A DNA stretch of 50,048 nt. Source: an uncultured Pelagibacteraceae bacterium. GTDB taxonomy: Bacteria; Pseudomonadota; Alphaproteobacteria; Pelagibacterales; Pelagibacteraceae. The stretch spans positions 1 through 50,048 of the forward strand of contig CABXYE010000005.1 of assembly GCA_902516425.1 (NCBI GenBank). Direction: 5' to 3'. This document shows positions 23,336 through 26,170 of the stretch, one piece after another (within the stretch, counting starts at the first letter, position 1; the number at the start of each line of letters is the position of its first letter). Below the pieces are notes generated by a model. It did no database searches and had not been told where the DNA came from. It worked only from the letters and a program-made list of their open reading frames with translations. Both the position numbers and the translations under genes were made by a program.

Positions 23336-24334
23336 ATGGTAATATTTAATAACAATCAAAATTTAACTAAAACTGACGATACCGATGTTAGTAAACCGTG
23401 GGATAAAGACAACCAGGCCTGGTGGGACTGGTATGTTAGTCTTGCAGACAATGATATTAAAGAAGATAAAATTATTGAAGTAGAACCCCTACCAGATATA
23501 ACATTACCTAGTGATGATGAAGTTATCTTAGAATTATCTGAGCCTTATAACTTATTGAAAGATCAAATTAATTTTTTTAAAAAAAACGGATTCATAAAAC
23601 TTAAGAGAGTTTTTTCACCTGGTACTATACTTAAACTTCGAGTTGAATTAATTAATCTTTTGAAAAAAGAGTTTAAGGTTGATCCAGATAAAGGTGCAAA
23701 TGAACGTTTTCTCAGTCTTGAAATGATCTGGACTAACAACCCACTTCTTCGCGCTTACGTGTTATCACCACGTCTAGGTCAAATTTCAACAGATCTTCTT
23801 GAGGTACCAGCCGTTAGACTTTACCATGATAATGTATTAGCTAAACAAGCAGGTTGCGGTCGAACCCCATGGCATTTTGATGATCATCATTTTCCTCTAG
23901 ATACTAATGACGTAGTTACCGCTTGGGTACCAGCGCAGCCAATCCCACTTGAGATGGGACCACTATCGTTTGCTTACCCACTCGATGTTCATGAATTAGT
24001 TAACTCAGTTACATTTGAAAAAACTGGTACTGGATATGACCGCGGAGTGTCAGAGGTTTTTTCAAAAAATAATGTGAGCGTGAATGAAACTCCATTTGAG
24101 CTTGGCGAAGTTAGTTTTCATCATAATTTAAATTTTCATACTGCTTCACGTAACCGTACTAATCGTAGCCGAGTAGTTCTAGCCAATACTTATTACCGAG
24201 ATGGAGCTAGAGTAATTAATTCACCTACAATGGTTTCTGGGGACTGGCAGAAATTTATGCCCAATGTTAAACCAGGAGAAGTGGCTGCTAGCCCACTGAA
24301 TCCTATTTGTTGGCCAGTTAGAGATAAATCATGA
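23336..24334 (+). CDS. Phytanoyl-CoA dioxygenase-like Fe(II)/2-oxoglutarate oxygenase
   Basis: The 332-residue protein carries the non-haem iron triad: His180 and Asp182 in TPWHFDDHHF and His268 in FHTASRNRTN. The likely 2-oxoglutarate-binding Arg279 is in NRSRVVLANTYYRDG. LKDQINFFKKNGFIKLKRVF is the family's N-terminal strand-helix. Such enzymes hydroxylate, halogenate or demethylate small metabolites. The N-terminus (residues 20-37, Trp-rich DNQAWWDWYVSLADN) is an addition outside the core. Eleven of 15 arginines use CGN codons, against none of seven in the preceding gene, hinting at acquisition. It overlaps the methyltransferase start by ATGA, so the substrates are probably linked. Confidence 0.88.
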   Translation: MVIFNNNQNLTKTDDTDVSKPWDKDNQAWWDWYVSLADNDIKEDKIIEVEPLPDITLPSDDEVILELSEPYNLLKDQINFFKKNGFIKLKRVFSPGTILKLRVELINLLKKEFKVDPDKGANERFLSLEMIWTNNPLLRAYVLSPRLGQISTDLLEVPAVRLYHDNVLAKQAGCGRTPWHFDDHHFPLDTNDVVTAWVPAQPIPLEMGPLSFAYPLDVHELVNSVTFEKTGTGYDRGVSEVFSKNNVSVNETPFELGEVSFHHNLNFHTASRNRTNRSRVVLANTYYRDGARVINSPTMVSGDWQKFMPNVKPGEVAASPLNPICWPVRDKS

Positions 24335-25245
24335 AAAATTTAAAAAGTCAGAGAGGACTAAATTCGATCTGGACTGACAGTCTTGCTCACAATTTGCGTC
24401 CTGATAGTAATGCCTTAGTTGATCATTTAATGACTGTTCATCAAAAACATACTGGATTTACTGAAGAGTGTGCAAGTTCTTGTCGGGATGAAACAGGACG
24501 GAATAGTTATGAATGGCTAGCTGAACTTGTGCCAGTTAATGAAAAATTGCGGGTACTAGATCTTGCCTGTGGATCAGGGCTATTATTAAAAATCTTATTC
24601 GATCGTAACAAAAATTTAAACTTAAGAGGTCTGGACATGTGTCCTGAAGAATTAGAATTAGCTGAGTCTCGTCTCAAAAATAGTGGAGTTGATCTTATTG
24701 AGTCTAAGGCGCAAAATTTGACTGCAATCCATGATAATTCTATCGACATAGTATTATGCCACTGGGCCTTAACATTAATGGACCCAATAGCTCCTGTATT
24801 AAACGAAGTAAGACGAGTTTTAACTCCTAAGGGGCGATTTGCAGCATTAGTTGATGGACCAATGAATGCAGTACCTCGCTATGCAGATGTACATAATTTA
24901 ATTTATAGTTATGCAAAAGATGAGATACCTAGTTATGGAGAGGTTGATTTAGGTGATTCAAGAATACGAGGACGTGAAAGCCTAAGTAATCTTGTACATG
25001 AAACTTTTCCAAAAGGAAATATAACTATTGAAACAAAAGTTGTTACTATTGAGGGACCAGTTAATCAAGTATCCGAAATTGCAGCAGGATTTTTCTATGC
25101 TGCATTTATCTTAAAGCCAGAGAAAAGAAAATTAATGTTAGCAAATTTGGCTAACATGCTTACGATACCTAAAGATAGTACTGATTTTGAAAGACTAGGA
25201 AGATTCTCAATGCCAATTAATCGTCTTTTAGTTGATCTGATTTAA
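24331..25245 (+). CDS. Class I SAM-dependent methyltransferase
   Basis: The 304-residue protein has the SAM-binding motif RVLDLACGSGLLLKI at 74-88, the acidic strand LRGLDMCPEELELAESRL and IDIVLCHWALTLMDPIAPVL, a standard Methyltransf_11-type core. An additional N-terminal region contains HQKHTGFTEECASSC, a Cys- and His-bearing stretch not typical of the core, and about 100 C-terminal residues presumably form a substrate cap. Twelve of 19 arginines are CGN, matching the oxygenase. It is coupled by ATGA to the oxygenase and followed after one base by an EgtD-type gene. The substrate is unknown, possibly a hercynine- or histidine-derived compound. Confidence 0.88.
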   Translation: MKNLKSQRGLNSIWTDSLAHNLRPDSNALVDHLMTVHQKHTGFTEECASSCRDETGRNSYEWLAELVPVNEKLRVLDLACGSGLLLKILFDRNKNLNLRGLDMCPEELELAESRLKNSGVDLIESKAQNLTAIHDNSIDIVLCHWALTLMDPIAPVLNEVRRVLTPKGRFAALVDGPMNAVPRYADVHNLIYSYAKDEIPSYGEVDLGDSRIRGRESLSNLVHETFPKGNITIETKVVTIEGPVNQVSEIAAGFFYAAFILKPEKRKLMLANLANMLTIPKDSTDFERLGRFSMPINRLLVDLI

Positions 25246-25246
25246 A

Positions 25247-26170
25247 ATGAAATCATTTTTACAAGAAGTGAGTGTCGGTTTAAGTAAGAAAAATAAGAAG
25301 CTAAGCTCTAAATGGTTTTATGACTTTTATGGATCAAAAATTTTTGAACAAATTACTAAGTTGGAAGAATATTACTTGACACGGACTGAAAGCAAAATTT
25401 TACAAGATAATAAAATTGAAATTGCCAATAAAATTGGCACTAACGCAGTTATAATTGAACCAGGCGCTGGAGACATTAAGAAAATTGGTATTTTTCTCGA
25501 CAACTTAGATAAGCCAAAAAAATATATACCATTAGATATTTCCGACAACTATATAATCAAAATTGCTAAAGGTTTTAAAAAAAAATTTCCAAATGTGGCC
25601 ATTACTCCAAAAGGATATGATTTCTCAAAAAATAATAAACTACCTTTTAAAATCAATTCGTCAGAAAATATAATAATCTTTTTTCCAGGATCAACTATTG
25701 GTAATTTTGAAAAAAATGATGCTATTAAATTTTTAAAAATGCTTAAATTAAAATTTAAAGCAAAAAAAATTATTATTGGCGCCGACTTAGTTAAAGATAT
25801 TCCAACTCTAATTTCTGCTTACGACGATAAAAAGGGCGTAACTGCAAAATTCAATAAAAATATTTTAAGAAGAATAAATATTGAATTGGGCGGAGATATA
25901 AACCTAAATTTCTATAAACATTTAGCTATTTATAATAAACCAAAAAAAAGGATTGAGATGAGATTAAAATCTAAAAGAAATAATAATATCAGAATAAATG
26001 GCTCAAAATATTTTATTAAGAAAAATGAAGAGATCCATACTGAAAATTCTCACAAATATACTATTAGATCCTTTAAAAACTTAGCAAATGAAGCTGGATG
26101 GAAAATCAATAAAACTTGGGTTGATGAAAAAAAACTTTTTAGTGTTCATTGTCTAGATTTAGCCCTATAG
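25247..26170 (+). CDS. EgtD-type L-histidine N-alpha-methyltransferase
   Basis: The 307-residue protein matches the EgtD family, which trimethylates histidine to hercynine using SAM. KWFYDFYGSKIFEQIT and EYYLTRTES open the protein, giving Tyr25 and Tyr43, the counterparts of the two N-terminal active-site tyrosines. Asn153 in GSTIGNFE, Tyr192 in AYDDKKGVTA, Met238 in IEMRL, and Glu266 and Ser268 in HTENSHKY match the histidine-binding residues known from mycobacterial EgtD. The SAM loop reads EPGAGDIKK instead of the usual ELGSGTSEK. Arginines are seven of eight AGA or AGG, so its codon use follows the host rather than its two partners. No EgtB sulfoxide synthase is nearby, so hercynine rather than ergothioneine may be the intermediate. 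Confidence 0.87.
   Translation: MKSFLQEVSVGLSKKNKKLSSKWFYDFYGSKIFEQITKLEEYYLTRTESKILQDNKIEIANKIGTNAVIIEPGAGDIKKIGIFLDNLDKPKKYIPLDISDNYIIKIAKGFKKKFPNVAITPKGYDFSKNNKLPFKINSSENIIIFFPGSTIGNFEKNDAIKFLKMLKLKFKAKKIIIGADLVKDIPTLISAYDDKKGVTAKFNKNILRRINIELGGDINLNFYKHLAIYNKPKKRIEMRLKSKRNNNIRINGSKYFIKKNEEIHTENSHKYTIRSFKNLANEAGWKINKTWVDEKKLFSVHCLDLAL

Follow-up and report, generated by a model that had tools for sequence, protein, structure and literature searches.

A cassette of three genes in SAR11

A window of 50,048 nucleotides from an uncultured Pelagibacteraceae bacterium (contig CABXYE010000005.1; the window is the whole stretch of DNA analysed) carries three intact open reading frames, arranged head to tail on the + strand, that encode a PhyH-type Fe(II)/2-oxoglutarate oxygenase (PhyH), a class I S-adenosylmethionine (SAM) methyltransferase of no characterised subfamily (MT) and the L-histidine N-alpha-methyltransferase EgtD. 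We put at about even the chance that this trio is a SAR11 cassette which occupies several places on the chromosome and makes a betaine derived from hercynine, a reading in which we infer the substrate, the chemistry, the order of steps and the role of the product. Conversion of histidine to hercynine, followed by oxidation and methylation and with no EgtB involved, is still the simplest reading of the locus.

PhyH (332 aa; 23336..24334), MT (304 aa; 24331..25245) and EgtD (307 aa; 25247..26170), all on the + strand, are joined exactly as an earlier note on this DNA had described, by an ATGA overlap between the PhyH stop and the MT start (24331..24334, + strand) and by a single-base gap at 25246 that separates MT from EgtD. 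An MT scan of the GTDB genome collection returned 98 relatives, 80 of which were kept (78 from Pelagibacteraceae or Pelagibacterales and 2 betaproteobacterial); together with the window and the loci G539, G559 and G638 these gave 84 loci for comparison, 82 of them distinct (G559 = L046 and G638 = L045). The gene order was PhyH-MT-EgtD in 34 of the 84 loci, PhyH-MT in 27 and EgtB-PhyH-MT-EgtD in 20, and EgtD-PhyH-MT-EgtB, PhyH-MT-EgtB and a cut MT were each seen once. The same trio, which the note had proposed to look for in other genomes, therefore does co-occur there, and its recurrence in 34 loci makes the linkage more than chance. Furthermore, the cassette is no assembly artefact, because the independent SAR11 genome L028 carries it (93/89/96% identical) between the same neighbours as in the window.

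The genes on either side of the trio form at least six different pairs. In the window and in L028 they are TauE and a phosphomannomutase-like gene, 19 loci have a dihydrolipoamide-dehydrogenase-like and a priA-like gene, and in the complete genome G539 a helicase-like gene adjoins the trio (TauE apart, these genes were named by reading their sequences). In 74 of the 79 loci measured besides the window, the PhyH and MT reading frames share 1-17 bases (4 in 48 loci and 5 in 21, with starts inferred by alignment); MT and EgtD share 4 bases in 48 of the 51 loci measured for that junction. Pairwise ratios of non-synonymous to synonymous substitution rates (dN/dS) among four trio genomes were 0.11-0.15 for PhyH, 0.20-0.25 for MT and 0.09-0.13 for EgtD; all three genes are under purifying selection in these genomes. 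Given the variety of flanks and this selection, the trio behaves as one functional unit. Small-genome operons can join unrelated genes, but neighbours that share no pathway would hardly recur as the same trio between so many flanks or keep so uniform an MT/EgtD overlap, and we regard such a chance assembly as very improbable.

EgtD and EgtB as companions of the PhyH-MT pair

The PhyH-MT pair seems to depend on EgtD and not on EgtB, with hercynine as its likely input. We sampled 217 genomes of the window's family, in which the pair occurs in 25, EgtD over the cut-off in 45 and EgtB over the cut-off in 15. EgtD was present in 23 of the 25 genomes with MT versus 22 of the 192 without it (Fisher test P=1.5e-16), a comparison drawn within the family; the corresponding figures for EgtB were 2 of 25 versus 13 of 192 (P=0.69). 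One genome counted here as without MT, G682, has part of an MT gene next to its EgtD, where a contig begins (L167), and several genomes of this sample are the same as those in the EgtB and EgtD searches of trio and pair-only genomes. MT was found in three genomes besides its own in a sample of the class (n=385) and in its own genome only in a sample of the phylum (n=398), and among the 61 nearest genomes PhyH was found in 4 and EgtD in 8, the 8 including those 4.

In the pair-only genomes EgtD was found elsewhere in 23 of 27, or in 24 of 30 once L078, L098 and L101 are added, the EgtD of L101 being the adjacent gene. EgtD is supplied from the cassette, from an EgtB-EgtD operon (L019 and L147) or from a gene beside a betaine-type ATP-binding cassette (ABC) transporter. 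All three distant alphaproteobacteria with the pair (G202, G382 and G164) carry EgtD elsewhere; in G202 and G382 it lies in an apparent EgtB-EgtD operon, after which comes a protein like EgtE (a scan of the one in G202 showed aminotransferase class V).

The search for EgtB gave a different picture. None was found by profile search in the host genome of the window (884 kb, 71% complete). Fifty genomes from the 58 loci without an adjacent EgtB were searched (29 trio and 21 pair-only), and EgtB was found in none of the 29 trio genomes and in 5 of the 21 pair-only genomes, one of the five being partial and below the cut-off. G539, a single contig rated 100% complete that carries the trio with MT and EgtD side by side, has no EgtB over the cut-off, its 41.8-bit match being a 264-aa protein with an FGE domain only, and a tblastn search of 33 trio loci for EgtB remnants returned chance-level matches only (E 0.77 or worse). 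The EgtB model is able to detect EgtB in SAR11, with 4 of the 50 genomes and 15 of the 217 scoring above the cut-off; of 14 control genomes none reached the cut-off and 4 matched weakly. The threshold matters: at E 0.001 the model matches 34 of the 217 genomes, 19 of which fall short of the cut-off, and those seen were partial or FGE-type, the G539 protein being the one opened. Five EgtB proteins cross-match OvoA/SenA models at 104-321 bits, and the EgtB model would probably match OvoA and SenA, whose own models were not searched; it gave no match in the host genome or in the 29 trio genomes.

The absence of EgtB claimed in the earlier note thus holds for the host genome, for the trio genomes searched and, at the cut-off, for G539, but not for the cassette at large, of which EgtB is a part in 19 of the 80 scan loci; a link to the ergothioneine pathway therefore exists. 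In those 19 SAR11 loci EgtB and PhyH stand side by side, which rules out PhyH as a substitute for EgtB.

PhyH+MT trees were built from 81 of 85 loci (L078, L086, L098 and L102 were omitted for cut genes). In the careful tree a single clade of 57 rows (100/99) takes in every SAR11 locus with EgtD in the cassette; nested in it are a group of 5 rows (100/100) that lost EgtD and another of 19 (100/100) that has EgtB, so that among SAR11 cassettes EgtB is confined to one derived subclade. Of the five genomes in the EgtD-loss group, 4 have EgtB elsewhere, one of these matches being partial and below the cut-off, and 3 have EgtD, again with one partial match; neither was found in L061. The presence of EgtD in the cassette took 3 changes on a quick tree and 2 on the careful one, and that of EgtB took 2 on both. 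Taken together, EgtD is a steady companion of the pair and EgtB is not, which argues that PhyH and MT need hercynine and not ergothioneine.

PhyH and MT might instead be tailoring enzymes for ergothioneine, or for an intermediate of EgtB, and yield a product such as hydroxy- or S-methyl-ergothioneine. The subclade with EgtB in the cassette fits such tailoring, as do the two betaproteobacterial loci (L098 and L101), in both of which EgtB adjoins the pair, the operons with an EgtE-like protein in G202 and G382, and the existence of a hydroxylated ergothioneine in a mushroom (see below, with its source). The trio genes nevertheless remain under purifying selection where EgtB was found in 0 of 29 genomes and not over the cut-off in G539, and import of ergothioneine to feed them would make the EgtD of the cassette purposeless. 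We consider tailoring of this kind rather unlikely.

Sequence features of the three enzymes

EgtD is a full member of its family (TIGR03438, 346.3 bits against a curated cut-off of 290.9) and matches the solved EgtD 4pim at E 8.9e-45. In an alignment of 74 EgtD rows (73 distinct; proteins shorter than 290 aa were left out), Tyr25, Tyr42, Tyr43, Asn153, Tyr192, Glu266 and Ser268 of the window protein are invariant and Met238 is kept in 59, being replaced by Gly in 11, Leu in 3 and Asn in 1. Family membership and these site residues suggest that the cassette EgtD would trimethylate histidine to hercynine. We take Met252 of mycobacterial EgtD, the counterpart of Met238, to be a residue of the histidine site that, presumably together with Glu282, sets the choice of amino acid; no paper on EgtD mutants at Met252 or Glu282 was found in the open-licence literature. 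The residues named for the mycobacterial enzyme in an excerpt of PMC8593015 are Tyr39, Tyr56, Asn166, Tyr206, Thr213, Glu282 and Ser284. Tyr56 aligns with Tyr42 of the window protein and Tyr43 corresponds to position 57; the histidine-binding site that had been described as retained is intact, although Tyr43 had been named in place of Tyr42.

PhyH scores 50.8 bits with PF05721 (cut-off 22), and its best matches among PDB sequences are SnoK (E 1.1e-14), SnoN (1.2e-8) and PhyH (4.8e-4). His180 and Asp182, the HxD of the presumed iron site (23873..23881, + strand), and His268 and Arg279, the presumed distal iron ligand and 2-oxoglutarate-binding residue (24137..24172, + strand), are unchanged in 80 of 80 aligned rows; these roles are assigned from the family pattern and from alignment to solved relatives, and the intact iron triad proposed before is borne out by the unchanged HxD...H. 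A Trp-rich N-terminal motif (residues 21-39, PWDKDNQAWWDWYVSLADN; 23396..23452, + strand) holds five aromatic residues, W22, W29, W30, W32 and Y33, that are likewise invariant in all 80 rows, and it does not occur in three aligned PhyH relatives from other contexts. The motif could serve as an aromatic cage for a quaternary ammonium group.

MT matches the Methyltransf_11 profile at 64.2 bits (cut-off 21.2), and no NCBIfam model reaches its cut-off with it among the best 25 of 29 models. The unusual Cys/His N-terminal region to which the earlier note drew attention is real: none of the 84 rows departs from His37 or GFTE (42-45). Cys47 is present in 82 rows and Cys51 in 83, but three distant homologues have each lost one cysteine of the pair. 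A conserved two-Cys metal site is thereby ruled out.

Proposed pathway and its alternatives

In the proposed pathway, EgtD and three SAM would convert histidine to hercynine, a step backed by family membership. PhyH, with O2 and 2-oxoglutarate, would then oxidise hercynine, most simply by hydroxylation, and MT would methylate the oxidised hercynine at the oxygen just introduced, at the carboxylate or at a nitrogen of the imidazole ring; we base both of these steps on the linkage of the genes and on what enzymes of these families usually do. As EgtB is not needed, the product of the trio would be without EgtB-made sulphur. Its role would probably be that of a compatible solute or protectant. 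An excerpt of PMC3826126 places hercynine in nine of ten cyanobacterial strains and describes betaines as compatible solutes, which makes a solute role plausible.

The same genes could also act in betaine breakdown, with oxidation by PhyH labilising hercynine so that trimethylamine or glycine betaine is released and with MT capping a by-product. SAR11 bacteria use methylated amines, and in pair-only genomes an EgtD type of the genus g280 adjoins a glycine-betaine-type ABC transporter (binding protein and permease) in 7 of 7 contexts read, one by Pfam scan and the rest by sequence. Building hercynine with three SAM and then destroying it would be wasteful, yet EgtD is in the cassette, and we judge breakdown improbable.

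Several observations weigh against synthesis of a betaine by way of hercynine. In addition to the family-bound comparison noted above, 20 of the 25 genomes with MT belong to the one genus g280, so that the 25 do not count as separate events. Four of the 27 pair-only genomes searched yielded no EgtD, perhaps through incompleteness, and one of these, L061, yielded no EgtB either. EgtB adjoins the PhyH-MT pair in 22 of the 84 loci. The predicted AlphaFold structure of PhyH is unusable (predicted local distance difference test score, pLDDT, of 34), and the model of MT (pLDDT 66) has generic fold matches with template-modelling (TM) scores of 0.3-0.5; by title these include carboxyl-, N- and S-methyltransferases, so that the fold does not tell the methyl acceptor, and a profile search of solved structures was also generic. 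Finally, in the g280-type EgtD (11 of 74 rows) Gly takes the place of Met252, the flanking motifs are altered and the TIGR03438 cut-off is barely passed (292.7 to 305.3 bits in three scanned), which raises the possibility that it may not use histidine or may not make plain hercynine; the Gly-type enzyme also occurs in four g280 genomes where no MT was found (L162-L165).

The Gly variant bears as well on the possibility that PhyH and MT modify histidine first, for example by beta-hydroxylation or imidazole methylation, and that EgtD trimethylates last. With its smaller residue, such a site in the EgtD of pair-only genomes could admit a bulkier amino acid, and the gene order PhyH-MT-EgtD would match this sequence of steps. 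The presence of the same variant in the four genomes without a detected MT speaks against it, however, and in some pair-only genomes (L019 and L147) the sole EgtD comes from an EgtB-EgtD operon and is expected to use plain histidine; in the cassette EgtD, moreover, Met238 and the whole histidine site are kept. We rate this order of events as unlikely, if the least so of the alternatives considered.

With hercynine retained as the intermediate, a wider proposal can be made, to which we give somewhat less than an even chance. In it, a horizontally moving PhyH-MT-EgtD cassette would let SAR11 produce an undescribed family of hercynine betaines, oxidised and methylated but lacking sulphur introduced by EgtB. 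A second, unrelated oxygenase module, in which a Rieske oxygenase lies beside EgtD in other SAR11 (in most cases seen, together with a methyltransferase of 209 aa), might reach the same end by a different route. On this view hercynine would be the hub from which several marine betaines are made, and more than a precursor of ergothioneine.

Neighbouring genes and related loci

TauE, DusA and DctP lie upstream of the cassette in the window, and an Rfam search of the window, bearing on possible regulation by a riboswitch, gave no match at the gathering score. Phage cargo was rejected, as two pattern scans of viral contigs gave no relatives of MT or PhyH and no relative of PhyH was found in phages. 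Plasmid cargo was likewise rejected: plasmid matches to PhyH are distant (best 44%), with no EgtD annotated in the three contexts opened, for which the gene table is incomplete, and plasmid matches to MT cover at most 64% of it among the best 20 of 46 rows.

The distant PhyH-MT pairs at L110:4754-8860, L108:7359-14607 and L109 share a third methyltransferase (275-278 aa, 55-56% identical) and a major facilitator superfamily transporter, and a sodium:solute symporter adjoins MT in L108 and L109 (the L109 transporters were recognised by sequence only). These transporters suggest transport of a related product.

The divergent Gly-type EgtD lies near an OpuAC-type binding protein, a permease and a further ABC set at L142:4364-7130, L143-L146, L148, L149 and L162-L165, and its amino-acid substrate may differ. 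At L145:4704-7277 and L164:2256-6415 a TauD-family 2-oxoglutarate oxygenase and an HD-domain protein stand between the betaine permease and EgtD (the Pfam scan covered the L145 pair only), an arrangement that we take to recall the TmpA/TmpB pair. In the PF10017 search, the Escherichia coli control genome unexpectedly matched over the cut-off.

A second type of module in SAR11 comprises EgtB, EgtD, a 209-aa methyltransferase and a Rieske oxygenase (L020:6777-10773; also L021-L023 and L147). The Rieske oxygenase is weakly like glycine betaine monooxygenase. At L166:6020-8125 a 72% identical Rieske enzyme adjoins EgtD, with no EgtB seen alongside.

Significance and comparison with known systems

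SAR11 bacteria rank among the most numerous cells on the planet. EgtD and PhyH are already known families, but no description of the PhyH-MT-EgtD set was found in the open-licence literature, nor any paper there linking hercynine to SAR11 or to phytanoyl-CoA dioxygenase. If the product is as proposed, it would constitute a new natural-product family; a cassette dedicated to turning hercynine into something other than ergothioneine would extend the nitrogen-rich betaines of the sea by a new class, whose masses are defined and can be looked for, and EgtD would serve pathways beyond ergothioneine. The reading thereby gives a testable prediction for existing seawater metabolomes.

Among characterised oxygenases, SnoK and SnoN are the best PDB sequence matches of the window PhyH and have its iron-site pattern in common, but they act in a polyketide glycoside pathway. 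EctD, of the PhyH superfamily, hydroxylates ectoine and so offers the case of a PhyH-type enzyme hydroxylating a zwitterionic solute; we use it as a working analogy only, as its sequence match to the window PhyH is not significant (E 0.72).

On the side of the product, beta-hydroxyergothioneine from the mushroom Lyophyllum connatum is named in a title (Kimura 2005) in the reference lists of PMC11993508 and PMC7653990. Going by that title, it is a natural hydroxylated histidine betaine, as the proposed product would be, but unlike the latter it contains sulphur and is fungal. We know of no enzyme that makes it.

The closest known system is the ergothioneine pathway (EgtB, EgtD and EgtE), which the trio resembles in having a full-member EgtD and, in one SAR11 subclade, EgtB in the cassette. 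To our knowledge, a 2-oxoglutarate oxygenase and a second methyltransferase are no part of that pathway as known, and it is by adding these two enzymes, and by doing without EgtB, that the trio differs from it.

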